From Hyphomicrobiales bacterium (GTDB lineage: Bacteria > Pseudomonadota > Alphaproteobacteria > Rhizobiales > Ancalomicrobiaceae): DNA of 64,000 bases. Below, piece after piece: positions 9,532 through 23,283 of the stretch. The position numbers and the translations under genes were made by a program. The notes beneath the pieces were generated by a model, which worked only from the letters and a program-made list of their open reading frames with translations, did not search any database and was not told the DNA's origin. The stretch is from contig JAJTBO010000007.1 in assembly GCA_021286855.1 (NCBI GenBank), forward strand, positions 87,781 to 151,780, read 5' to 3'. Position 1 is the first letter of the stretch; every line of letters begins with the position of its first letter.

Positions 9532-10926
9532 TCACGCGTCGGCGCGCGGCTCCGCTCGCGGCGGCTTCGCCTCGCCGCCGTCTTCGTCATCGCCGTCGTC
9601 GTCGACCGTCACTTCGCGGCGTCCGCTCTTGCGGCCCATGTCGATCAGGAAGCCGTCGGCGAGCGCCCGATAGAGCGGCTCAGGCGCGACCATCCGCGAC
9701 TGGCCGTAGCCGAGCATCGAGGCGACCATCAGCGGGATGACGTTGCCGTGGTTGTCGGTCATCTCCATGATGATGACGAAGGCGGTCATCGGCGACTGCA
9801 CCACCCCGGCGAAATAGGCGGCCATGCCGAGCACGGCGACGAGCCCGGCCTGATCGGTGGAAAACAGCTGGGCGATCCAGCCGCCGAGCCCCGCGCCGAC
9901 CGACAGGGACGGCGCGAAGATGCCGCCGGGAATGCCCGAGATCGCGGTCACCAGCGTCGCCGCGAACTTGCCGAACCAGAAGGTTCCCCCCGGTTCGCTG
10001 CCGTCGATCGCGCCCTTGGCGATCTCGTAACCGGTGCCGAAGGTCGCCCCGCCGCTCGCCACGCCGATCGCCGCGACGATCAGGCCGCAGACCAGAGCGA
10101 CGAGAAGTTCGCGCCGCATCCCGACCGGCGCGCACCAACGCTTCAGCGCCCGCGTGCCCTCCAGCATGCCGCGCGAGAAGAGCCCCCCGGCGACGCCGCC
10201 GACGACGCCGCACACCGCCACCAACGCCCAGTCGCCGACGTCGTGGACGCGGCCGGTGCTCCAGCCGAAATAGTTGTAGTTGCCGACGAGGCCGAGCGAG
10301 ACGAGGCCCGAGATGATCACCGCGTAGAGCACCAGACCGTTGGTGCGCTGCTCGAAGGCCTTGCTCATCTCCTCGATGGCGAAGACGATGCCGGCGAGCG
10401 GCGTGTTGAAGGCGCCGGCGATGCCGGCCGCCGACCCGGCCAGGATCAGGGCCTTCTCGCGCTGCACGCCGCCCCAGATGCCGAACTGCAGCATCACCGC
10501 CGCGCCGACCTGCACCGTCGGCCCCTCACGCCCGATCGAAGCGCCCGAGGCGAGCCCGAGCGTGGTGAGGACGATCTTGGCGAGGATGACGCGCGGCGAC
10601 AGGAGCGCCAGCCGGTCGTCGGTCGCCCTCAGATCGCGCGCCGCCATCGCCTGCGGAATGCCGCTGCCCGCCGAAGCCGGCGCGAACCGGCGCGTCGTCC
10701 AACGGATCAGGACGAATCCGGCCGGCGTCACCAGCAACGGCAACCACCAGATCTTCGCCTCTTCGAACAGGAACAGGTTCTGCCCGGCGTTCGACAGAAT
10801 GGCGAAGCCGACCGAGGCGAGGCCGACGAAGAGCGCGCCCGACCAGAAGACCAGCCGTCGCTGCCACATCAGTTTCGATAGAAACCGCGCCGACAGACGC
10901 CGACGATCGATCTTCTTGGGTCTCAT
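9532..10926 (-). CDS. ClC family chloride channel or H+/Cl- antiporter
   Basis: The 464-residue membrane protein carries the ClC selectivity-filter motifs in order: GSGIP (about residues 86-90), GREGP with the gating glutamate E134, and GGIFAPSL. The gating glutamate suggests either exchange or gated channel activity; the inner-gate glutamate that marks antiporters cannot be assigned with confidence by eye. There is no C-terminal CBS pair; instead the tail is acidic (VDDDGDDEDGGE). I chose the ATG at 10926 (MRPKKIDRRR), close to the first helix; earlier in-frame starts to 11025 add a low-complexity arginine-rich stretch. The ribosome-binding site is weak. Confidence 0.88.
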   Translation of the reverse strand: MRPKKIDRRRLSARFLSKLMWQRRLVFWSGALFVGLASVGFAILSNAGQNLFLFEEAKIWWLPLLVTPAGFVLIRWTTRRFAPASAGSGIPQAMAARDLRATDDRLALLSPRVILAKIVLTTLGLASGASIGREGPTVQVGAAVMLQFGIWGGVQREKALILAGSAAGIAGAFNTPLAGIVFAIEEMSKAFEQRTNGLVLYAVIISGLVSLGLVGNYNYFGWSTGRVHDVGDWALVAVCGVVGGVAGGLFSRGMLEGTRALKRWCAPVGMRRELLVALVCGLIVAAIGVASGGATFGTGYEIAKGAIDGSEPGGTFWFGKFAATLVTAISGIPGGIFAPSLSVGAGLGGWIAQLFSTDQAGLVAVLGMAAYFAGVVQSPMTAFVIIMEMTDNHGNVIPLMVASMLGYGQSRMVAPEPLYRALADGFLIDMGRKSGRREVTVDDDGDDEDGGEAKPPRAEPRADA

Positions 10927-11106: not shown

Positions 11107-12234
11107 TCAGCGGAAGGTGCGCAGGTAGTAGCCCTCGAAGATCCGCTTCAGCCAATGGAAGACGATCGACTTCGGCCCGACGAAGTTGAACTTCTCGTTG
11201 CGGAACACGACCATGCCGGCGTCGAGCGTGTCGACGATGCAGATCAGCTCCGGCTTGAACGCCTCGCTCGGCTCGCGCCCGGACAGCGTCGCCACGACGT
11301 TGGCCGCCGCCGCCTTGGCCTGCAGATCGGCCTGATGCGCCTGTTTCGGCATCCAGTCCGGCCCGGGGAAGGAGCCGGCGTCGCCGACCACCCACACCCC
11401 CGGCCGTCCCTCGACCCGACACAGGCCGTCGGCGACGATCATGCCGCCCGGCGACAGCGGCAGATCGGCGTTCGCGAGCCACGCCGGGCCGGTCAGCCCC
11501 GGCATGAACAGGATCAGATCGGCGTCGATCTCGCCGCCCTCGGTGACGACCTTCTTTTCCTCGATCCGCACCATCTTGTGGCCGAGATGGGTGCGGATGC
11601 CGCGCTTCGCCATCTCGGCGAGAAGCCCGTCGACCGCCTTCGGTCCGAGCCGCTGGCCGGGGCGGGTGGCCGGATTGAAGAAGACGATCTCGAACTTGTC
11701 GCGCCGACCGTGCTTCCGGAGCCACGTGTCGATGATGAAGAGGAATTCGAACATCGGGCCGCCGCGCATGGCGCCCTGCTCGTTCGGATTGGTGGCGAAG
11801 CCGATGGCGATCGTGCCGCCGCTCATCGCCTCCAGCCGACGCTCGATCTCCTCGCCGACGGCGATGCCCTCGCAGGGGATCAGCGCGTTTTCGATGCCCG
11901 GCAGTTTGCGGATGAAGCGCCCGCCGGTGGCGATCACCAGCTGGTCGTTGACGAACTCGCCCGCGTCGGTGAGCACCCGGCGGCCGCCGTCGGCGAGCCC
12001 GGTGACCGAGGCCTGGACGAAGTCGACCTTCTGCTCCTTGAAGAAATGGGCGAGCGGGATCCTCAGATCCTCGCCCTTTCTCAGATGCGTCGGGATCCAG
12101 ATCGTGCTGGGCAGATAGTGCAGATGATCGCGCGGCGAGATCACCCGGATCTCGCCCGTCCATCCCTTGCGGCGCAGCTGGCGCACCGTGGTCAGCGCCC
12201 CGAAGCCCGACCCCAGAACCGTGATGGTCTTCAC
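11107..12234 (-). CDS. Sulfide:quinone-oxidoreductase-like FAD flavoprotein
   Basis: The 375-residue protein starts with an FAD fold (TVLGSGFGALTT, GSGFGA at residues 8-13), has a second nucleotide-like segment (TIAIGFATNPNEQGAM), the LIPCEG cysteine, the VWVVGDAGSFPG FAD motif and a second candidate cysteine in ELICIVDTLDAG. This layout is that of sulfide:quinone oxidoreductases and related membrane-peripheral disulfide reductases that pass electrons to quinone; an NDH-2-type role is the alternative. The start is GTG at 12234, with GAGGAGGGACTGC upstream. That GTG overlaps the TGA of the DUF2202 gene by four bases (GTGA), so the two are translationally coupled. Confidence 0.8.
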   Translation of the reverse strand: MKTITVLGSGFGALTTVRQLRRKGWTGEIRVISPRDHLHYLPSTIWIPTHLRKGEDLRIPLAHFFKEQKVDFVQASVTGLADGGRRVLTDAGEFVNDQLVIATGGRFIRKLPGIENALIPCEGIAVGEEIERRLEAMSGGTIAIGFATNPNEQGAMRGGPMFEFLFIIDTWLRKHGRRDKFEIVFFNPATRPGQRLGPKAVDGLLAEMAKRGIRTHLGHKMVRIEEKKVVTEGGEIDADLILFMPGLTGPAWLANADLPLSPGGMIVADGLCRVEGRPGVWVVGDAGSFPGPDWMPKQAHQADLQAKAAAANVVATLSGREPSEAFKPELICIVDTLDAGMVVFRNEKFNFVGPKSIVFHWLKRIFEGYYLRTFR

Positions 12235-12905: not shown

Positions 12906-13817
12906 TCAACCGGCCTCGATCGTCTTCAGCGCCAGCACCGCGGCGGAGGCGCGGTTCTCCACGCCGAGTTTGGCGAAGACCGTCTCGAGGTGCTTGTTCA
13001 CGGTGCGTGGGCTGAGGCCGAGAATGTCGCCGATGTCGCGGTTCGACTTGCCGCGCGCCACCCACAGACACACCTCCGCCTCGCGCGCGGTCAGCCCGAA
13101 GCGCCGCCTGAGCGCCGCCTCCTCGCCGCCCGCCTCGTCGATCATCAGCCGCCACAGCCATTCGTCGTCGCCGGCGCGGCCGAGCCCGTTGAGCTGCAGC
13201 CGACGCGTCTCGGTCTCCTCGACGACGATCGGCCCGGCCGAACCCTCGGTGATCGCCGCCGCGATTCGCGCCCCGACCTCCGCCGACAGCCCCTCTTCGC
13301 CGGCGAGGTCGGCGACGAGCTTGCCCGCCTGCGGCGTCGCCCAGGAGAGGCGTCCGGCCCGATCGGTGGCGAGCAGAAAGCGGCCGGCGGTGTCGAGCGC
13401 CATCCGCGCCGAGCGTTCGCGCCGGGCGTTGGCGAGATGGACGCGGATGCGCGCGGTCAGCTCGTCGAGCACGATCGGCTTCGTGACGTAGTCGACGCCG
13501 CCGGCGGCGAAGCCCTCGACGATGTGTTCGGTCTCGGTCAGCCCGGTCATGAACAGGATCGGCACGTCGGCGGTCGCCGGCAGCTTCTTCAGCCGCCGCG
13601 TCGTCTCGAACCCGTCGATCCCCGGCATGACGGCGTCCATCAGGATCACGTCGGGCGTGATCCGCTCGACGATGCCGAGCGCCTGTTCGCCCCCCGTCGC
13701 CACCAGCACCATCGCGCCCTGCGCCTCGAGCGTCTGGGTGAGGAAGCCGAGCGTGTCCGGGTTGTCGTCGACCACCAGGACGATGTCGCGGCTCTTGGTC
13801 GCATCAGGCGTCGCCAT
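12906..13817 (-). CDS. LuxR/FixJ-type response regulator
   Basis: The 303-residue protein has an N-terminal receiver (LVVDDN at 14-19, phospho-acceptor D61 in VILMDAVMPG, lysine in YVTKPI near 111), a middle segment resembling a small PAS-like fold (GRFLLATDRAGRLSWATPQAGKLV), and a C-terminal LuxR helix-turn-helix (LTAREAEVCLWVARGKSNRDIGDILGLSPRTVNKHLETVFAKLGV). It should bind DNA as a dimer when phosphorylated. Its ATG at 13817 overlaps the end of the hybrid kinase gene by 14 bases, making that kinase the probable partner and the divergent urt promoter the probable target. Confidence 0.88.
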   Translation of the reverse strand: MATPDATKSRDIVLVVDDNPDTLGFLTQTLEAQGAMVLVATGGEQALGIVERITPDVILMDAVMPGIDGFETTRRLKKLPATADVPILFMTGLTETEHIVEGFAAGGVDYVTKPIVLDELTARIRVHLANARRERSARMALDTAGRFLLATDRAGRLSWATPQAGKLVADLAGEEGLSAEVGARIAAAITEGSAGPIVVEETETRRLQLNGLGRAGDDEWLWRLMIDEAGGEEAALRRRFGLTAREAEVCLWVARGKSNRDIGDILGLSPRTVNKHLETVFAKLGVENRASAAVLALKTIEAG

Positions 13818-16800
13818 CCGAGGCCTCCAGCAATCGCACCAGGCGGTCCATGTCGAAGGCCTCGGCGGCGCGGGCGAGTTCGACCAGCCGCTTGCCCGGC
13901 GCGCCGCCGCCCGCGCGGATCTCCGTCTCGATCGCCTCGAGCTTCGAGACGACGCCGCGAACATAGCCGATCCCCGCCCACTGCAGGAGGTCGCGCGCCT
14001 CCTCCCGTGTCGGTCGATCGTCGTAGGCCGCCGCCGCCGGTTCGGCGGTCGTCGACGCCGCCGGCTCGCTCGTCCAATCGAGACCGAGATGCGCCTGCAG
14101 CCGATCGATCAGGCGCGACAGATCGAACGGCTTGGCGATCAGATCGTCGTGCGCGGCGATCTCCGCCTCCGGCGGCGGCGTCTCGCCGACATTGGCCGAG
14201 AGCACGACGATGCGCCCGCCGTACCCGGCTTCGCGCAGCCGCGTCGCCACCTCCCACCCGTCCATGCCCGGCATGGAGAGGTCGAGCAGGATCAGATCCG
14301 GCGGTGAGGCGGCCACCGCCTCGAGACAGCTCGGCCCGTCCTCCGCCTCCTCGATCGCAAAACCGATCGGCTCCAGCGCCGCCCGGACGAGATCGCGGTG
14401 ATCGGGGTTGTCGTCGACCACCAGGATCCGCCGCCGCGCGCCCTCGTAACCGGTGATCGCCGGCGCGCTCGCCGTCGCCTGCGGCCGCGCCACGACGGAG
14501 AGATGCATCCGCACCCGGAAGCGGGTCCCCGCCCCGGGCGTGCTGTCGACGCGCACGTCGCCGCCCATCAGCGTCACGATCATCTTGGTGATGGTCAGTC
14601 CGAGCCCGAGCCCCGGCTTGCGCCGCGCGCTCTCGCCGCGCTCGAACGGCTCGAAGATGCGGGCGAGATCCTTCGCCTCGATGCCCACCCCGGTGTCGAC
14701 GACGGTGAAGGTCGCGATCTCATGGCGCATGCCGACGTCGAGATGGACATCGCCGGCGTTGGTGAACTTGATCGCATTGGTGAGCAGATTGGTCAGCACC
14801 TGCCGGAGCCGCTTCTCGTCGGTCGCCACCACTTCCGGCAGCTTCGTCGGCCGGGTGAAACGGAAGGTCAGGCCCTTCGCTTCGGCCTGCGGTCGGAACA
14901 TCTCGACGAGGCCGTCGAGGAAGTCGGAGAAGCGGATCTCGTCGCGGGAGAGTTCGAGCCGGCCCGCCTCGATCTTGGAAATGTCGAGGAGCCCGTCGAT
15001 CAGGCCGGAGAGATGCTCCGCCGAACGCCTGATGACCTTGACCGAATGGGCCCGCCCGTTGGTGATCCCGGCGTCGCGCTCCAACACCTGCGCGTAACCG
15101 AGCACCGCGTTGAGCGGCGTCCGCAGTTCATGGGAGAGCCCGACCAGATAACGGCTCTTGGCGAAGTTCGCCGCCTCCGCCGCCTCCTTGGCCTTCTGCA
15201 GCGCCGCGTCGGTGCGCTCGTGCGCCGCGATCTCGTCGAGCAGCAGGCCGGTCTGGCGCGCCGATTCCTCCTCCGCCACCCGTCGGCTCTCGTGCGCCAG
15301 CACGAAGAACCACGCCACCACCCCGGCGACGATCAGCAGCACGAAGAACGCCGCCCAGAGCGCCCGCGTCAGCGCCGCCTCGATCGCCGGATCGCGGGGA
15401 TCCGACTGGAAGTGGATGACGAGGAGGACGAGGCCGATCGCCGTCATGAGAAGCGCCAGGATCGCGACATATTCCAAGAGCCGCGGGCTCAACCGCGTCG
15501 CCAGCGCCGACGGCAGCAGCGCCTTGGTCCAGGCGCGCGCCTGCGCCGAGATCCGGCCCTCCGGCTTGCACTGGTCGCGACAGCGCGCGTCGAGCGAACA
15601 GCACAGCGAGCAGATCGGCGCGCCATAGGCCGGGCAATGGGCGCTGTCCTCCGGTTCGAAGTCGTGCTCGCAGACCGAACAGCGGATCAGGCTCTCCCGC
15701 GCCCAGTCCGCCTCCGGTCGGCGCGCGAAGTACCATTTGCCGCCGGTCGCCCAGGCCAGGAGCGGCACCATCGCCATCGAGACCGCCAGCGCCACGAAGG
15801 GCGCGAAGGCCTGCGCCAGAGCCCCGAAACGGCCGGTCGCGGCGAAGAGCGCCAGCGCCGCCGCAATCGTCATCGACCCGACCCCGACCGGATTGACGTC
15901 CGGCAGATGCGCCCGCTTGAACTCGATCCCCGGCGGCGACAGGCCGAGCGGCTTGGCGATGCCGAGATCCGCCGACACCGCCCCGAGCCAGGCGACCGCG
16001 ACGATGGCGAAGAGCCCGAGCGTCTTCTCCAGCGCCTCGTAGATGCCGAGCTCCATCAGCAAGAGCGCGATCGCCACGTTGAAGACCAGCCAGACCACCC
16101 GGCCGGGATGGGAATGCGTCACGCGGGAAAAGAAGTTCGACCACGCCAGCGAGCCCGCGTAGGCGTTCATCACGTTGATCTTGAGCTGCGAGACGACGAC
16201 GAAGAAGGCGGTGAGCGCCACCGCCGCCTCCTTCGACGGGATCATGTAGGAGAAGGCGACGTCGTACATCCAGGCCGGTTCCGCCGCGTGCCCCTCCGGC
16301 ACGCCGAGCCTGAGCGCCACCACCGCCAGCAGCGACCCGGCGAAGAGCTTCGGCGCGCCGAGCACCACCCAGCCGGGACCTGCGAAGAAGGTGGCGATCC
16401 GGTGCGCCCGCGCCCCTTCGACGATCCGCGCCGGCAGAAACCGCAGGAAATCGACCTGCTCGCCGATCTGCGGCATCAATCCGAGGATCACCGACGAGGC
16501 GAGGCCGAAACGGACGAGATCGAACTCCTCCATCCATGTTCCCGGCTGTCCGCCCCGCGCCGCGCCGCCGAACTGGATCCAGGCCGAGAACTGCGCCGGA
16601 TCCTTCCAGGCGATGAAGGCGAAGGGCAGGACGTTGAGGACGATCCAGAACGGCTGGGTGAACAGCTGGAAGCGCGAGATCGCGGTGATGCCGTAGACCA
16701 CCAGCGGGATCACCGCGAGCGCCGACAGGATGTAGGAGAACCACAGCGGCCAGCCGAAGGCGAGCTTCAGCGCCGACGACATGATCGAGGCTTCGATGGC

Positions 16801-17190
16801 GAAGAGGATGAAGGTGAAGCTCGCATAGACCAGCGACGTCACCGTCGAGCCGATGTAGCCGAACCCCGCCCCGCGCGTCAGAAGATCGATGTCGACGCCG
16901 TGTTTCGCCGCCGCGCGCGCCACCGGCCAACCGGTGACCAGCAGGACGATCGACACGACGACGATCGCCGCGGCGGCGTTGACGAAGCCGTGGGCGAGCG
17001 TGATCGTGCCCCCGATCGCCTCCAGCGCCAGGAACGAGATCGCCCCGATCGCCGTCTGTGCGACGCGCGGCGCCGACCAGCGCCGGGCGCTCTTCGCGGT
17101 GAAGCGCAGCGCATAGTCCTCGAGCGTCTGGTCCGCCACCCAGCGATTGTAGTCGCGGCGAACGGGAAGGATGCGCTGTCGTCCGGCCAT
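13804..17190 (-). CDS. Hybrid histidine kinase with NCS1 permease-like sensor domain
   Basis: The 1128-residue inner-membrane protein is a fusion. Residues ~20-490 are a complete 10-12 helix transporter resembling NCS1 purine/cytosine/allantoin/hydantoin permeases (KINVMNAYAGSLAWSNFFSR is the clearest piece). Residues ~503-541 hold eight cysteines (CSVC, then C, C, CC, C, C), probably a metal or Fe-S site. Two further helices (568-630) and a coiled coil lead to HisKA (SHELRTPLN, ~685), HATPase (NLLTNAIKF, GVGI, GLGLGL) and a receiver with the ILLDLSMPG aspartate (920-1035). The ATG at 17190 follows GAGAGGACGC. It is divergent from urtA and overlaps the LuxR regulator, so it probably senses urea or a related amide. 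Confidence 0.88.
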   Translation of the reverse strand: MAGRQRILPVRRDYNRWVADQTLEDYALRFTAKSARRWSAPRVAQTAIGAISFLALEAIGGTITLAHGFVNAAAAIVVVSIVLLVTGWPVARAAAKHGVDIDLLTRGAGFGYIGSTVTSLVYASFTFILFAIEASIMSSALKLAFGWPLWFSYILSALAVIPLVVYGITAISRFQLFTQPFWIVLNVLPFAFIAWKDPAQFSAWIQFGGAARGGQPGTWMEEFDLVRFGLASSVILGLMPQIGEQVDFLRFLPARIVEGARAHRIATFFAGPGWVVLGAPKLFAGSLLAVVALRLGVPEGHAAEPAWMYDVAFSYMIPSKEAAVALTAFFVVVSQLKINVMNAYAGSLAWSNFFSRVTHSHPGRVVWLVFNVAIALLLMELGIYEALEKTLGLFAIVAVAWLGAVSADLGIAKPLGLSPPGIEFKRAHLPDVNPVGVGSMTIAAALALFAATGRFGALAQAFAPFVALAVSMAMVPLLAWATGGKWYFARRPEADWARESLIRCSVCEHDFEPEDSAHCPAYGAPICSLCCSLDARCRDQCKPEGRISAQARAWTKALLPSALATRLSPRLLEYVAILALLMTAIGLVLLVIHFQSDPRDPAIEAALTRALWAAFFVLLIVAGVVAWFFVLAHESRRVAEEESARQTGLLLDEIAAHERTDAALQKAKEAAEAANFAKSRYLVGLSHELRTPLNAVLGYAQVLERDAGITNGRAHSVKVIRRSAEHLSGLIDGLLDISKIEAGRLELSRDEIRFSDFLDGLVEMFRPQAEAKGLTFRFTRPTKLPEVVATDEKRLRQVLTNLLTNAIKFTNAGDVHLDVGMRHEIATFTVVDTGVGIEAKDLARIFEPFERGESARRKPGLGLGLTITKMIVTLMGGDVRVDSTPGAGTRFRVRMHLSVVARPQATASAPAITGYEGARRRILVVDDNPDHRDLVRAALEPIGFAIEEAEDGPSCLEAVAASPPDLILLDLSMPGMDGWEVATRLREAGYGGRIVVLSANVGETPPPEAEIAAHDDLIAKPFDLSRLIDRLQAHLGLDWTSEPAASTTAEPAAAAYDDRPTREEARDLLQWAGIGYVRGVVSKLEAIETEIRAGGGAPGKRLVELARAAEAFDMDRLVRLLEASDGDA

Positions 17191-17328
17191 GCGTCCTCTC
17201 GACCAGGGCGTCGGCGCGGCGCGCGCCGAACGTTTCGCCTTTTCGCCTCTTTCGAGGTCGTTCGTCCATGTCCGCGAGACGGCGGCGCGCCGATTTTTCC
17301 GGCAAGCGGCGTCCTTGGGCAGAAACTG

Positions 17329-17340
17329 CGTCAATTGACG
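17329..17340. promoter_or_regulatory. Perfect palindrome in the urtA / sensor-kinase divergent promoter region
   Basis: CGTCAATTGACG is a perfect 12-base palindrome placed 94 bases before the urtA start and 139 bases before the kinase start. It includes a TTGACG that could serve as a -35 for urtA, although I see no convincing -10. It is a candidate site for the neighbouring LuxR-type regulator. Confidence 0.45.
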
Positions 17341-17433
17341 TATGGGTCGGGAACGCCGGCCGCGCTCAACTCTCCCCCGAGCGGGCCCGAGGGCCGGGAC
17401 CGTCCTCTCAGTCGAAACTCCGGGGGAGTATTC

Positions 17434-18720
17434 ATGACCTTCAACGAGAAGCTTCTGGGCGCGATCGTCGGCGCCGCCATTTCGGCCGGCGCCTTCTCTT
17501 CCGCCGCCCGCGCCGAGGACACCATCAAGATCGGCATCCTGCACTCGCTCTCCGGCACCATGGCGATCTCGGAGACGACGCTGAAGGACACCATGCTCTT
17601 CCTCATCGACGAGCAGAACAAGAAGGGCGGCGTCCTCGGCAAGAAGCTCGAGGCGGTCGTCGTCGACCCGGCCTCCAACTGGCCGCTCTTCGCCGAGAAG
17701 GCGCGCGAGCTGATCGCCAAGGACAAGGTCTCGGCCGTGTTCGGCTGCTGGACCTCGGTGTCGCGCAAGTCCGTGCTGCCGGTCTTCAAGGAGCTGAACA
17801 ACATCCTCTTCTACCCCGTCCAGTACGAGGGTGAGGAGAGCGAGCGCAACGTCTTCTACACCGGCGCCGCGCCGAACCAGCAGGCGATCCCGGCCGTCGA
17901 CTACCTGATGTCGAAGGACGGCGGCGAAGTGAAGCGTTGGGTGCTCGCCGGCACCGACTACGTCTATCCGCGCACCACCAACAAGATCCTCGAGGCCTAT
18001 CTCAAGGCCAAGGGCGTCGCCGCCGAAGACATCATGATCAATTACACGCCGTTCGGTCACTCCGACTGGCAGACGATCGTCTCGGACATCAAGAAGTTCG
18101 GCTCCGCCGGCAAGAAGACTGCGGTCGTGTCGACCATCAACGGCGACGCCAACGTGCCCTTCTACAAGGAGCTCGGCAACCAGGGCGTCAAGGCGACCGA
18201 CATCCCGGTCGTCGCCTTCTCGGTCGGCGAAGAAGAGCTCGCCGGCATCGACACCAAGCCGCTGGTCGGCCACCTCGCCGCGTGGAACTACTTCCAGTCC
18301 GTCAAGGACCCGGCGAACGAGGCCTTCATCGCCAAGTGGAAGGAATACACCAAGAACCCGAAGCGCGTGACCAACGACCCGATGGAAGCCCACGTGATCG
18401 GCTTCCAGATGTGGGTGAAGGCGGTCGAGAAGGCCGGCACCGTCGATCCGGACAAGGTCATCGACGCGCTTCCGGGCATCCAGGCGCCGAACCTGACCGG
18501 CGGCATGTCGACCATGCTCCCGAACCACCACATCACCAAGCCGGTGCTGATCGGCGAGATCAAGGCCGACGGCCAGTTCGACGTGGTGTGGAAGACCAAG
18601 GACCTCGTCCCCGGCGACGCCTGGACCGACTTCCTGCCCGGCTCCAAGGACCTCGAGGCCGACTGGGTCACGCTCAAGTGCGGCAACTACAACACCGTCA
18701 CCAAGAAGTGCGGCGGCTGA
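17434..18720 (+). CDS. urtA: Urea ABC transporter substrate-binding protein UrtA
   Basis: The 428-residue periplasmic binding protein has a signal peptide (residues 1-28, GAAISAGAFSSAARAED) and a mature part beginning DTIKIGILHSLSGTMAISE, the UrtA form of the branched-amino-acid-binding fold. Diagnostic stretches include AVFGCWTSVSRKSVLPVF, PVQYEGEE and TDYVYPRTTN. UrtA captures urea (and short amides) for the UrtBCDE importer. CGGGGGAG precedes the ATG. It is the first gene of the operon and is separated from urtB by about 400 bases rich in stem-loops, which may keep it more highly expressed than the membrane genes. Confidence 0.95.
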   Translation: MTFNEKLLGAIVGAAISAGAFSSAARAEDTIKIGILHSLSGTMAISETTLKDTMLFLIDEQNKKGGVLGKKLEAVVVDPASNWPLFAEKARELIAKDKVSAVFGCWTSVSRKSVLPVFKELNNILFYPVQYEGEESERNVFYTGAAPNQQAIPAVDYLMSKDGGEVKRWVLAGTDYVYPRTTNKILEAYLKAKGVAAEDIMINYTPFGHSDWQTIVSDIKKFGSAGKKTAVVSTINGDANVPFYKELGNQGVKATDIPVVAFSVGEEELAGIDTKPLVGHLAAWNYFQSVKDPANEAFIAKWKEYTKNPKRVTNDPMEAHVIGFQMWVKAVEKAGTVDPDKVIDALPGIQAPNLTGGMSTMLPNHHITKPVLIGEIKADGQFDVVWKTKDLVPGDAWTDFLPGSKDLEADWVTLKCGNYNTVTKKCGG

Positions 18721-19118: not shown

Positions 19119-20678
19119 ATGCTCTTCGGCGCGGTTCTTCCGGCCGCCGCTCAGGACATCTCCGCCGCTCTCGTCAAACTGACCGCCGACGGCTACGCCG
19201 ACACCGCCGAAGCGATCGGCGACCTCGCGACCTCGGGTCATCCGCGCGCCGCGGTCATCGTCCAGGCGATCGCCGACAAGACCCTCGAATTCGACGCCGC
19301 CACCAAGACGGTGGCGATCCGAGACGGCGGCAAGGTCGTCGACGCAGCGACCGGCGACGCGATCGCCGCCCCGCCCGCCGGCCTCTCGCCCGTCCGCGTC
19401 AACAACCGCGTCCGATCGGCCATTTCGGCCGCCATGGGCGCGCTGACGCTGATGTCGCCCGATCCGGCGAAGCGACGCGACGCGGCGGACGCCGTCTTCA
19501 AGTCGCGCGACCAGGGCGCGCTCGCGACCCTCGACGCCGCGATCGCCAAGGAGAAGGACGGCGCGATCCGCGAGGCGCTGCGCGTCGCCCGCGCCGCCGT
19601 GATCCTGACCAAGGCCGACGCTTCGGAGACCGACCGCGTCGAAGCCGCCTCGATCGTGCGCGAACGCGGCGATCAGGACGCCGTGTCGCTGCTTCGCTCG
19701 CTGCCCTCCGACACGCCGAAGCGCGTGCAGGACGCCGCCCAGACCGCCGCCAAGGCGATCGAGACGACGCTCGCCCTGTGGGGCGGCGTTCAGAACGCCC
19801 TCTACGGCCTATCGCTCGGCTCGGTGCTGCTGCTCGCCGCGATCGGCCTCGCCATCACCTTCGGCGTGATGGGCATCATCAACATGGCGCACGGCGAGCT
19901 CGTCATGCTCGGCGCCTACACCACGTTCGTCGTCCAGGAGGTGATCCGCTCGCATGCGCCGGCCCTCTTCGACTGGTCGCTCGCCCTCGCCCTGCCGCTC
20001 GCCTTCCTGGTCTCCGGCCTCGTCGGCGTGCTGATCGAACGCACCGTCATCCGCTGGCTCTACGGCCGGCCGCTCGAGACCCTGCTCGCCACCTGGGGCA
20101 TCTCGCTGATCCTGCAACAGGCGGTGCGCACCCTCTTCGGCGCCAACAACCGCGAGGTCGGCGCGCCGAGCTGGATGTCCGGCTCGCTCGATCTCGGGGC
20201 CCTGACGCTGACCACCGGACGCATGTGGATCATGGTCTTCGCCCTGATCGTCTTCCTCGGCCTGATGCTGATCCTGAAGAAGACCGCCGCCGGCCTACAG
20301 ATGCGCGCCGTCACCCAGAACCGCGCCATGGCCTCGGCGATGGGCATCAAGACGCCTTGGGTCGACGCGCTCACCTTCGGGCTCGGCTGCGGCATCGCCG
20401 GCATCGCCGGCGTGGCGCTCTCCCAGATCGACAACGTCTCGCCGAACCTCGGCCAGGGCTACATCATCGACAGCTTCATGGTCGTGGTCTTCGGCGGCGT
20501 CGGCAATCTCTGGGGCACGCTGGTCGGCGCGCTGACGCTCGGCGTCGTCAACAAGTTCCTGGAGCCGGTCGCCGGCGCGGTGCTGGGCAAGATCCTGGTG
20601 CTGGTCTTCATCATCCTGTTCATTCAGAAGCGTCCGCGGGGCCTGTTCGCCCTCAAGGGCCGGGCGGTGGAAGCATGA
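19119..20678 (+). CDS. urtB: Urea ABC transporter permease UrtB
   Basis: UrtB has a periplasmic N-terminal helical domain (~residues 10-205 here: AALVKLTADGYADTAEAIGDLA and following) then a LivH-type permease of about eight helices (GVMGIINMAHGELVMLGAY, GNLWGTLVGALTLGVVNKFLEP). It forms the channel with UrtC. The start is uncertain. The hydrophobic signal sequence (RRFAAALFFAVAMLFGAVLPAAAQ) begins about ten codons before the only nearby ATG at 19119; the next in-frame ATG is at 18882, across a palindromic repeat. The 19119 start gives 519 residues, near family length, but leaves a short leader. It overlaps urtC by ATGA. Confidence 0.9.
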   Translation: MLFGAVLPAAAQDISAALVKLTADGYADTAEAIGDLATSGHPRAAVIVQAIADKTLEFDAATKTVAIRDGGKVVDAATGDAIAAPPAGLSPVRVNNRVRSAISAAMGALTLMSPDPAKRRDAADAVFKSRDQGALATLDAAIAKEKDGAIREALRVARAAVILTKADASETDRVEAASIVRERGDQDAVSLLRSLPSDTPKRVQDAAQTAAKAIETTLALWGGVQNALYGLSLGSVLLLAAIGLAITFGVMGIINMAHGELVMLGAYTTFVVQEVIRSHAPALFDWSLALALPLAFLVSGLVGVLIERTVIRWLYGRPLETLLATWGISLILQQAVRTLFGANNREVGAPSWMSGSLDLGALTLTTGRMWIMVFALIVFLGLMLILKKTAAGLQMRAVTQNRAMASAMGIKTPWVDALTFGLGCGIAGIAGVALSQIDNVSPNLGQGYIIDSFMVVVFGGVGNLWGTLVGALTLGVVNKFLEPVAGAVLGKILVLVFIILFIQKRPRGLFALKGRAVEA

Positions 20679-21814
20679 TCACACACTTCCTCCTGAAGGG
20701 GCTCGACCGCCGCGTCGTCGTCGCCCTCCTGCTGATCCTCGCGGTCGCCGTGCTGGTGCCGGTGCTCAATCTGGTCGTGCCGGAAGGCTCGCCCTTCCAC
20801 GTGCCCACCTACCTCGTCACGCTCTTCGGCAAATACGCGACCTATGCCGCGCTCGCCCTGGCGCTCGATCTGGTCTGGGGCTTCTGCGGCATCCTGTCGC
20901 TCGGCCACGGCGCCTTCTTCGCCCTCGGCGGCTACGCCATGGGCATGTATCTGATGCGCCAGATCGGCACGCGCGGCGTCTACGGCGATCCGATCCTGCC
21001 GGACTTCATGGTCTTCCTGAACTGGAAGAGCCTGCCCTGGTACTGGCACGGCTTCGACCATTTCGCCTTCGCCGCCTTGATGGTGGTGCTCGTGCCCGGG
21101 CTCTTGGCGCTGGTCTTCGGCGGCCTCGCCTTCCGCTCCCGCGTCACCGGCGTCTATCTGTCGATCATCACCCAGGCGATGACCTACGCCCTGCTGCTCG
21201 CCTTCTTCCGCAACGACATGGGCTTCGGCGGCAACAACGGCCTGACCGACTTCAAGGACATCGTCGGCTTCAACGTCCAGGCCGACGGGACGCGCGCCGC
21301 GCTCTTCGCCCTCTCCTGCCTGACGGTGGCGGCGGGGCTGCTGTTCTCGGCCGCGATCGTCCATTCCAAGCTCGGCAAGGTCCTCGTCGCCATCCGCGAC
21401 GCGGAGAGCCGCACCCGCTTCATCGGCTACCGGGTGGCGACCTACAAGACCTTCGTCTTCGTCGTCTCAGCGATGCTCGCCGGCGTCGCCGGAGCGCTCT
21501 ACGTGCCGCAGGTCGGCATCATCAACCCCGGCGAATTCTCGCCCGCCAACTCGATCGAAGCGGTGATCTGGGTGGCGGTCGGAGGCCGCGGCACCCTGAT
21601 CGGCCCGATCGTCGGCGCCCTCGCCGTCAACTGGGGCAAGACCTGGTTCACCGGGGTCCTGCCCGAACTGTGGCTCTTCGCCCTCGGTCTGCTCTTCGTC
21701 CTGGTGACGCTGTTCCTGCCCAAGGGCATCGTCGGCACGATCTCCGACCTCTTCGCTCGCCGTCGCGCCGCCCCGCCGGTCGACCCGACCGCCCAGCCCC
21801 AGCCCGCGGAGTGA
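20675..21814 (+). CDS. urtC: Urea ABC transporter permease UrtC
   Basis: The 379-residue LivM-type permease has about ten helices and the conserved SLGHGAFFALGGYAMGMYLM loop, TGVYLSIITQAMTYALLLAFFRNDMGFGGNNGLTDF-type stretch and the EAVIWVAVGGRGTLIGPIVGA coupling segment. It pairs with UrtB to form the urea channel in the inner membrane. Its ATG overlaps the urtB TGA (ATGA), so the two subunits are translationally coupled. The proline-rich tail ends nine bases before the urtD start. Confidence 0.95.
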   Translation: MITHFLLKGLDRRVVVALLLILAVAVLVPVLNLVVPEGSPFHVPTYLVTLFGKYATYAALALALDLVWGFCGILSLGHGAFFALGGYAMGMYLMRQIGTRGVYGDPILPDFMVFLNWKSLPWYWHGFDHFAFAALMVVLVPGLLALVFGGLAFRSRVTGVYLSIITQAMTYALLLAFFRNDMGFGGNNGLTDFKDIVGFNVQADGTRAALFALSCLTVAAGLLFSAAIVHSKLGKVLVAIRDAESRTRFIGYRVATYKTFVFVVSAMLAGVAGALYVPQVGIINPGEFSPANSIEAVIWVAVGGRGTLIGPIVGALAVNWGKTWFTGVLPELWLFALGLLFVLVTLFLPKGIVGTISDLFARRRAAPPVDPTAQPQPAE

Positions 21815-21822
21815 GAGAGACC

Positions 21823-22584
21823 ATGGCCCACGAGCTCGCCTCCCAGTCCCTGCTCTACCTCGACGACGTCAAGGTCTCCTTCGACGGCTTCAAGGCCCTG
21901 AAGGGCCTCAGCCTCGTCATCGAACCGGGCGAAATGCGCGCCATCATCGGCCCGAACGGCGCCGGCAAGACCACCATGATGGACTGCATCACCGGCAAGA
22001 CCCGGCCCGACGAGGGCGAGGTCCTGTTCGAGGGCGGCTCGATCGACCTGACCGGCCTCGACGAGGCCGCGATCGCCGAACTCGGCATCGGCCGCAAGTT
22101 CCAGAAGCCGACCGTCTTCGAGAGCCACACCGTCGAGGACAACGTCTATCTGGCGCTGAAGGCCGATCGCGGCCCCTTCGCCACCCTGTTCCATCGTCTC
22201 TCCGGGGCCGAGGCCGCCCGCATCGACGAGATCCTGGAGACGGTCCATCTCGCCGAACGCCGCGCCGAATTGGCGAAGAACCTGTCGCACGGCCAGAAGC
22301 AGTGGCTGGAGATCGGCATGTTGCTCGCCCAGGAGCCGAAACTCCTGCTCGTCGACGAACCGGTCGCCGGCATGACCGACGCCGAGACCATGCAGACCGC
22401 GGCGCTCTTGCGGCGGATCCACGCCTCCGGCAAGTCGGTGGTCGTCGTCGAGCACGACATGGCCTTCGTCCGCGAGCTCGGCGTCAAGGTGACGGTGCTG
22501 CACGAGGGCGGCGTGCTCTCGGAAGGGACCATCGACCATGTCGCGAGCGACCCGAAGGTCATCGAAGTCTATCTGGGACGCTGA
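21823..22584 (+). CDS. urtD: Urea ABC transporter ATP-binding protein UrtD
   Basis: The 253-residue LivG-type ATPase has Walker A GPNGAGKT (about residues 46-53), Q-loop region GRKFQKPTVFE, the signature LSHGQKQWLEIGM (UrtD proteins typically have LSHGQKQWLEIG rather than LSGGQQ), Walker B LLLVDEPVAGM and the switch histidine in VVEHDM. It powers urea import with UrtE. GAGAGA lies in the short gap after urtC, and urtE follows three bases after the stop. Confidence 0.95.
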   Translation: MAHELASQSLLYLDDVKVSFDGFKALKGLSLVIEPGEMRAIIGPNGAGKTTMMDCITGKTRPDEGEVLFEGGSIDLTGLDEAAIAELGIGRKFQKPTVFESHTVEDNVYLALKADRGPFATLFHRLSGAEAARIDEILETVHLAERRAELAKNLSHGQKQWLEIGMLLAQEPKLLLVDEPVAGMTDAETMQTAALLRRIHASGKSVVVVEHDMAFVRELGVKVTVLHEGGVLSEGTIDHVASDPKVIEVYLGR

Positions 22585-22587
22585 GCC

Positions 22588-23283
22588 ATGCTGACCGTCG
22601 AAAACGTCGATCTGTTCTATGGCGCGGCGCAGGCCCTGCGCGGCGTCTCCACCACCGCGAAGATCGGCGAGATCACCTGCGTGCTCGGCCGCAACGGCGT
22701 CGGCAAGACCTCGCTGATGCGCGCCATCGTCGGCCAACAGCCGATCGCCAAGGGAAAGATCGCCTGGGAGGGCCGCGACCTCGCCCATGTCGCGCCCTAC
22801 GACCGGGCCCGCGCCGGCATCGCCTTCGTGCCGCAGGGCCGCGAGATCTTCCCGCTGCTGACGGTGGAGGAGAACCTCCAGACCGGCTTCGCCTGCCTGC
22901 CGAGATCCGAGAAGCAGATCCCCGACGAGGTCTTCGAACTCTTCCCCGTGCTCGGCGACATGCTGCGTCGGCGCGGCGGCGATCTTTCAGGAGGTCAGCA
23001 ACAGCAATTGGCCATCGGCCGGGCTCTGGTCACCCGCCCGCGCCTCCTCGTCCTCGACGAACCGACCGAGGGCATTCAGCCCTCGATCATCAAGGACATC
23101 GGCCGTGCGCTCGAATATCTGCGCGGCAAGGGGACGATGGCGATCCTGCTGGTCGAGCAGTATTTCGACTTCGCCCGCGAACTCGCCGACCACTACACGG
23201 TGCTCGATCGCGGCGAAGTGGTGATCGAAGGCGCCAAGGGCGACGTCGACCCGGAAGCGGTCCGGGCGAAGATCGCAGTGTGA
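22588..23283 (+). CDS. urtE: Urea ABC transporter ATP-binding protein UrtE
   Basis: The 231-residue LivF-type ATPase has Walker A GRNGVGKTSLMRA, PQGREIFPLLTVEENL at the Q-loop, the LSGGQQQQLAIGRAL signature, Walker B LLVLDEPTEGIQPSII and the LLVEQYFDFA segment typical of LivF/UrtE. It is the last gene of the urtABCDE operon. In many bacteria urease genes follow urtE; here the next gene is on the opposite strand and unrelated, so urease must be encoded elsewhere. Confidence 0.95.
   Translation: MLTVENVDLFYGAAQALRGVSTTAKIGEITCVLGRNGVGKTSLMRAIVGQQPIAKGKIAWEGRDLAHVAPYDRARAGIAFVPQGREIFPLLTVEENLQTGFACLPRSEKQIPDEVFELFPVLGDMLRRRGGDLSGGQQQQLAIGRALVTRPRLLVLDEPTEGIQPSIIKDIGRALEYLRGKGTMAILLVEQYFDFARELADHYTVLDRGEVVIEGAKGDVDPEAVRAKIAV

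Follow-up and report, generated by a model that had tools for sequence, protein, structure and literature searches.

The hybrid histidine kinase encoded beside the urea ABC transporter genes of the window (the whole 64,000-nucleotide stretch analysed here) carries a predicted NCS1-like permease in the same polypeptide, and together with its partner response regulator it probably senses urea and is predicted to activate the divergent urtABCDE operon via a palindrome at 17327–17342. A sequence-only reading of this DNA had placed a permease and a kinase in one protein, with an eight-cysteine cluster ahead of the kinase core, a LuxR-type regulator gene overlapping the kinase gene, and urtA divergent from it. 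This architecture holds up: a predicted NCS1-like fold, the cysteine module (residues 504–541, with HisKA further along), two predicted helices and a hybrid kinase core were all found in the chain, the measured overlap of regulator and kinase genes is 14 bases, and the kinase (13804–17190, minus strand) is divergent from urtA (17434–18720, plus strand).

Table 1. Features of the kinase, regulator and urt region, in window coordinates.
Feature	Position	Strand	Basis
LuxR/NarL-type response regulator, 303 aa, 14-base overlap with kinase	12906..13817	-	
Permease-fused hybrid histidine kinase, 1128 aa	13804..17190	-	
Kinase's own receiver domain, Asp970	14098..14427	-	Pfam
HATPase_c catalytic domain	14500..14823	-	Pfam
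HisKA phospho-acceptor domain, His687	14962..15159	-	Pfam
Two more predicted helices and start of signalling helix, residues 569-640	15271..15486	-	Secondary structure of model; membrane placement putative
Eight-cysteine module, residues 504-541, CX2CX11CX7CX2CCX5CX3C	15568..15681	-	
NCS1-like transmembrane domain, residues 40-482 (predicted)	15745..17073	-	AF2 model, fold matches, bridge to PF02133
Predicted operator TGCGTCAATTGACGTA; differs from the family consensus TACGTCAATTGACGTA at one position	17327..17342	.	
Putative weak -10-like hexamer position (TCAACT here), poor match	17366..17371	+	Column conservation, 48 aligned promoters
urtA, urea ABC transporter binding protein	17434..18720	+	TIGR03407, 562.8 bits (cut-off 492.75)
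urtB, permease, start codon uncertain	19119..20678	+	TIGR03409
urtC, permease	20675..21814	+	TIGR03408
urtD, ATPase	21811..22584	+	TIGR03411
urtE, ATPase	22588..23283	+	TIGR03410

The catalytic residues H687, D832, D970 and K1020 are invariant in an alignment of 20 kinase proteins. Pfam matches give a hybrid kinase core and a LuxR-type regulator, as in the SLC5/STAC histidine kinases, and no SSF-type (SLC5) Pfam match was found in the window kinase. The regulator consists of a receiver and a GerE helix-turn-helix domain (Pfam), which fits the NarL/LuxR-type response regulators, and UrtA to UrtE, encoded in one operon, all exceed their NCBIfam cut-offs. Just 3′ of the regulator gene, at 11107–12234, the window also encodes an FAD-type oxidoreductase with a below-cut-off match to sulfide:quinone reductase.

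Assigning the N-terminal domain to the NCS1 family depended on structure. By our own count, the AF2 model of this domain has 12 membrane helices, with TM1 and TM6 broken, and structure comparison matched residues about 21–515 of the model to the fold of the NCS1 transporters Mhp1 and CodB, with SLC5 folds also among the matches and ranked under NCS1. The PDB titles describe the solved NCS1 structures that were matched as one hydantoin-binding and one cytosine transporter. Direct matches to PF02133 were found neither for the window kinase at E ≤ 0.01 nor for its residues 1–680 at E ≤ 1, and the family was not among the best 25 of 27 families for 43 aligned kinase members. Against the sequences of solved structures, phmmer with residues 1–495 gave no match at E ≤ 10 and profile A2 gave one chance match, while hhalign of profile A2 with three NCS1 proteins returned 14% probability. 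A standalone permease at locus L206 provides a bridge, being 27% identical to window residues 21–493 (E 2e-36, in a single comparison) and matching PF02133 with 36.4 bits (cut-off 23.5). It is because of the fold match and this bridge, not of a direct sequence match to solved structures, that we describe the N-terminal part of the kinase as a predicted, complete NCS1-like permease fold and a candidate sensor or carrier. At L206 (8949–13370), the standalone NCS1 permease akin to the kinase domain is followed by a CN_hydrolase protein and then by a Peripla_BP_5 protein that we take to be AmiC-like, making this permease operon a candidate transporter for an amide or nitrile product.

Of 157 loci examined, the 156 with a kinase all carry the eight-cysteine motif without deviation; the remaining one, the standalone permease, is without it. 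Across the source genome, it is present in only two proteins, the window kinase and a second kinase of the same type. The module sits between predicted TM12 and two further helices in the model, and should therefore be cytoplasmic. Its region has no Pfam match at the place where SLC5/STAC kinases carry STAC, in a library that may be without a STAC model.

Kinase homologues number at least 8000. The comparison of kinase/urtA neighbourhoods that the sequence-only reading had called for was run on an even draw of 199 genomes from the order; 50 kinase matches turned up in 48 of them. By coordinates, at least 42 of the 50 have a urtA-family gene divergent and upstream, at a gap of 230–3626 bp (under 700 bp in 39 of 42), and reading of L106 and L112 added two further divergent loci. 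The remainder comprises two kinases at contig ends and four beside a formamidase and an AmiS/UreI channel, these four forming a distant branch without the C-terminal receiver. At L091 (7349–8551) and L092 (7210–8412), the receiver-less kinase is followed by a protein with receiver, HisKA and HATPase domains, an unusual partner. The class sample yielded a kinase in 22 of 289 genomes; of 18 further loci read, 12 have the kinase divergent from a gene of the urtA family (1.2–1.5 kb off in three cases), two have urtA near on the same strand, and four are without it. A kinase match was present in 42 of 299 genomes of the phylum sample, where 22 kinases outside the class and one additional order locus were read (six further order kinases seen here, and a kinase fragment in genome G472 of the class sample, stand without a neighbourhood reading). 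These 23 loci include 16 divergent arrangements, one with urtA downstream, two with urt genes about 8.5 kb away, one with formamidase and AmiS/UreI, one contig end and two with none of these. Outside the order, a urtA-family gene is divergent in 28 of the 40 loci read.

Pooling the order, class and phylum kinases (n = 91), 72 have a urtA-family gene in divergent orientation, three have urtA near in another arrangement, two have urt genes at about 8.5 kb, five adjoin formamidase and AmiS/UreI, three lie at contig ends, and six show no link. In these six (L160, L161, L163, L167, L201 and L204, the first three sharing one genus code), tblastn found no urea/amide gene of six types within about 9 kb. 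Hydantoin or nucleobase genes were absent from the neighbours annotated, in an annotation not aimed at such genes. A pair found mostly away from urt genes had been named beforehand as the outcome that would break the link to urea; the opposite was found. The earlier proposal of urea or a small amide as the signal is likewise supported, the partners being urtA, a urt-like operon with formamidase, formamidase with AmiS/UreI, or aliphatic amidase.

The second kinase of the source genome is 57% identical to the window kinase, has its own regulator, and is not its sister on the kinase tree. Opposite this second pair lies another ABC operon; all five of its subunits likewise score above the Urt model cut-offs, and it continues with the formamidase FmdA (NF045496) and an FmdB-type zinc ribbon protein. 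Since the formamidase-linked binding protein exceeds the UrtA cut-off too (550.4 bits), the NCBI UrtA model cannot separate urea from amide, and we use our own label, urtA2, for the formamidase-linked urtA-like type. Amide genes were counted in a different set, 116 kinase loci made up of best hits, fetched order loci, the window and its paralogue: formamidase accompanies 30 of 32 urtA2-type loci, the two misses ending early, and aliphatic amidase accompanies 15 of 32, versus 0 of 75 urtA-type loci; one Bradyrhizobium kinase, L088, has the aliphatic amidase gene itself as its divergent partner. The urease alpha gene of the source genome lies on another contig, C33, where a search with the family consensus, allowing up to three mismatches, found no palindrome. 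Urease was thus rejected as a co-target, and the regulon looks dedicated to uptake.

The window kinase and its paralogue have the same palindrome in their intergenic regions. Among 80 kinase/target intergenic regions, TACG-N8-CGTA is present in 72, with 1.4 expected from the same loci (the palindrome and formamidase counts draw on the 80 best homologue loci, which are best hits and not a sample and do not enter the 91); as the loci are related, these are 72 copies and not 72 events (near-copies occur, L077 and L104 being identical in the tree). In the window copy, TGCGTCAATTGACGTA, a single letter deviates; seven further regions are without the motif. Many Bradyrhizobium-type copies have the TACG and CGTA ends alone in common with the urea-type consensus. 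The window by itself holds one palindrome, against 0.02 expected. In urtA-type rows it lies 58–163 bases from the urtA start and 76 to 1355 from the kinase, with a second copy close to the kinase in L029; where kinase and urtA are displaced by 1.6–7.8 kb, the single copy precedes urtA, not the kinase, in 27 of 27 loci. Of the 18 class loci, 12 have the palindrome ahead of the kinase and 6 do not. Outside the class, 13 of 22 loci have it before the kinase, fmdA or a gene of the urtA family and 9 do not, with copies before fmdA where this gene is set apart (L184, L187, L188, L189 and L192).

Exact TACGTCNNTTGACGTA occurs at 22 sites in 21 of the 199 order genomes, and 20 of the 22 lie before these genes; the kinase is present in 20 of the 21 genomes, versus 48 of 199 overall, and the reversed sequence used as a control gave 0 sites. 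In the source genome, allowing up to two mismatches to the consensus returned only the two kinase loci (one mismatch in the window, two at the paralogue), a third site at three mismatches (C41:877) lying at the end of an unrelated-looking gene. Kinase-linked urtA intergenic regions carry the palindrome in 48 of 48 cases, the window's variant letter allowed; urtA upstream regions of kinase-less genomes carry it in 0 of 20. It is also missing from the formamidase/channel branch (L091–L094, L207), from the amiE-linked L088 and from five amide-type intergenic regions of the order (L096–L100), and L084 and L086 are one letter short of it. Downstream of the operator is a second conserved block, xATxxT, whose last T falls 36.5 bases after the operator centre. 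If this block, which resembles a weak -10 box, serves as one, the predicted operator would be centred near -43, a position typical of activators.

Target choice appears to have been revised during evolution. When the N-terminal parts of 115 kinases were placed on a tree, three changes of target type accounted for the four types, the minimum possible, in a count that leaves out four rows of unclassed target type. When class and phylum members were added, the three main target types needed six changes, and urtA-linked kinases fell on several separate branches; this was a quick tree with some open forks, its count of changes leaves out target-less rows, and three quarters of the urtA rows L012–L073 were thinned from it (L078, with a cut translation, is in neither tree). 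Repeated changes of type on the trees imply that targets were exchanged more than once, and wherever the target is recognisable, the swaps stayed within urea/amide handling. M341/T341, F394/Y394, P280 and W264, fixed or nearly fixed between branches in the first set, were considered as a urea-versus-amide code and rejected. M341/T341 failed outside the order: the TM8 position is T or A in urtA-linked kinases of the class and phylum too, so that we treat it as a clade marker.

The simplest reading of these observations is substrate induction through a transceptor kinase. The ligand, urea here and formamide, acetamide or some other short-chain amide in sister branches, would fill the NCS1-like central cavity and shift the conformational state of the domain, and the cytoplasmic eight-cysteine module with its helix pair would relay that shift to the HisKA/HATPase core. 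Phosphate would then pass to the LuxR-type regulator, either directly or with the kinase receiver acting as a sink or tuner, and a regulator dimer bound to TACGTCAATTGACGTA, some 43 bases ahead of the inferred urtA start, would recruit RNA polymerase. The sequences themselves show the gene architecture, the match of the fold, linkage across the phylum, and a conserved palindrome that is specific within the genome. Urea or amide is the putative ligand and the permease domain the putative place of sensing, perhaps also a carrier; binding of the regulator to the palindrome, with activation as the effect, is predicted. More tentatively, and with slightly less than even confidence, we suggest that NCS1 transceptor kinases throughout the Pseudomonadota read urea and short-chain amides directly in the permease cavity, that the invariant eight-cysteine coupler stands in for STAC, and that on several branches the switch moved from one kind of uptake system to another (amide or urea, through an ABC transporter or a UreI-type channel) within the same chemical class.

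Several features of this scheme have precedents. In CrbS/CrbR and RpuS/RpuR (PMC5715377, PMC9100948), as here, one protein unites a transporter domain and a kinase that has a receiver of its own, and there is a partner regulator (LuxR-type in CrbR) that induces solute uptake or use genes via a promoter-region repeat, as we propose here; rpuS lies 220 bp from the mctP operon that it controls. These systems differ from ours in having SLC5 where the window kinase is NCS1-like, STAC in place of the eight-cysteine module, and acetate or pyruvate instead of the proposed urea or amide, and the operator here is a predicted 16-base palindrome. CbrA of Pseudomonas also joins transporter and kinase in one polypeptide with a cytoplasmic domain between, proposed in the available portion of a 2026 preprint to relay transporter motions (PMC13022988). 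Unlike the window kinase, CbrA has SLC5, STAC (whose position the cysteine module occupies here) and PAS domains, and is a global regulator rather than a switch for one or two operons. Mhp1 and CodB share the fold of residues about 21–515 and are without a kinase. A dedicated response to short-chain amides is known from AmiC/AmiR, in which a soluble binding protein, AmiC, controls an antiterminator, with neither permease nor phosphorelay; the likeness lies in the amide response, and amiE is also a neighbour at some kinase loci here.

A different site of perception has to be weighed against sensing in the permease. The pair could control urt or fmd genes in response to a signal read in the cytoplasm, by the cysteine module or as a nitrogen, redox or metal cue, with the permease as carrier or anchor; we regard this as unlikely, though deserving of some weight. 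The cysteine module accompanies all 156 kinases and not the standalone permease, and for CbrA the SLC5 domain is reported not to be essential for signal perception (work cited in PMC9100948), and activation not to depend on transport (PMC5715377); sensing thus does not have to reside in a permease merely because it is fused. On the other hand, an input specific to a ligand is suggested by targets that follow urea/amide handling, and in the order set 132 of 584 compared kinase columns do not vary between the urea, amide and channel branches. N339, N342, Q241 and E244, candidate residues of the cavity, are among the invariant ones. The accessible part of the CbrA preprint, moreover, places the ligand in the transporter core, with STAC docked beneath it, and proposes a relay running from the core to STAC (PMC13022988).

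Two further explanations shift the operator or the signal elsewhere, and sensing of urea or amide by the kinase remains preferred over both. That the palindrome belongs to another urea/amide regulator, with the kinase pair merely travelling along, seems improbable. Among the matches listed, 78 of 125 urtA-bearing genomes of the order sample are without the kinase, so that urt operons can do without it and other regulators exist; the palindrome is missing at some kinase loci, and its pairing with this regulator is a prediction. Such a regulator is nevertheless hard to reconcile with a kinase in 20 of 21 genomes with the exact site, with the absence of the palindrome from all 20 kinase-less urtA upstream regions, and with source-genome matches at up to two mismatches that are the two kinase loci only. 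Slighter still is the chance that the signal is general nitrogen status or another solute, such as a hydantoin or nucleobase, with urea/amide genes as one output. The hydantoin-binding and cytosine-transporting proteins among the solved NCS1 structures would fit it, whereas the recurrent partners in the 91 neighbourhoods are urt, fmd-type ABC, FmdA, AmiE and AmiS/UreI, and a urease gene on a palindrome-free contig leaves a regulon apparently dedicated to uptake.

In full-text literature that mostly lacks subscription papers, no title or abstract opening was found to describe an NCS1-fused kinase or its pairing with urt or fmd genes, and the term NCS1 does not occur in the accessible part of PMC7918813. 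If the proposal is true, NCS1 would be a second transporter family in transceptor kinases, which the partly available sources describe with SLC5 alone, and urea and amides would have a dedicated, widespread two-component system with a defined operator and a regulon of one or two operons. An inexpensive, non-toxic ligand and a clean reporter would then allow sensing by ligand binding to be told from sensing by transport, and thousands of proteins named merely as hybrid histidine kinases could gain a likely function.

Minor features of the operator regions were also noted. On the urtA strand, immediately after the operator, a further short dyad, TGC-N3/4-GCA (e.g. GTGCATTGCAC), was seen by eye in L011, L039, L045, L048, L055, L114 and others, and not in the window or Devosia loci; it is possibly a second regulator site. 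In L160, L161 and L163, TACG-N8-CGTA occurs no more than about 200 bases ahead of the kinase match, making autoregulation, with targets elsewhere, possible. Two exact operator-like sites lie away from any kinase (G034:C141:343406, L210; G046:C1:479344, L209), the gene caller giving nothing at the former and neighbours at the latter. In L071, there are two operator copies, one at position 9909, before the kinase, and the other at position 22551, before a urtA gene about 12 kb away.
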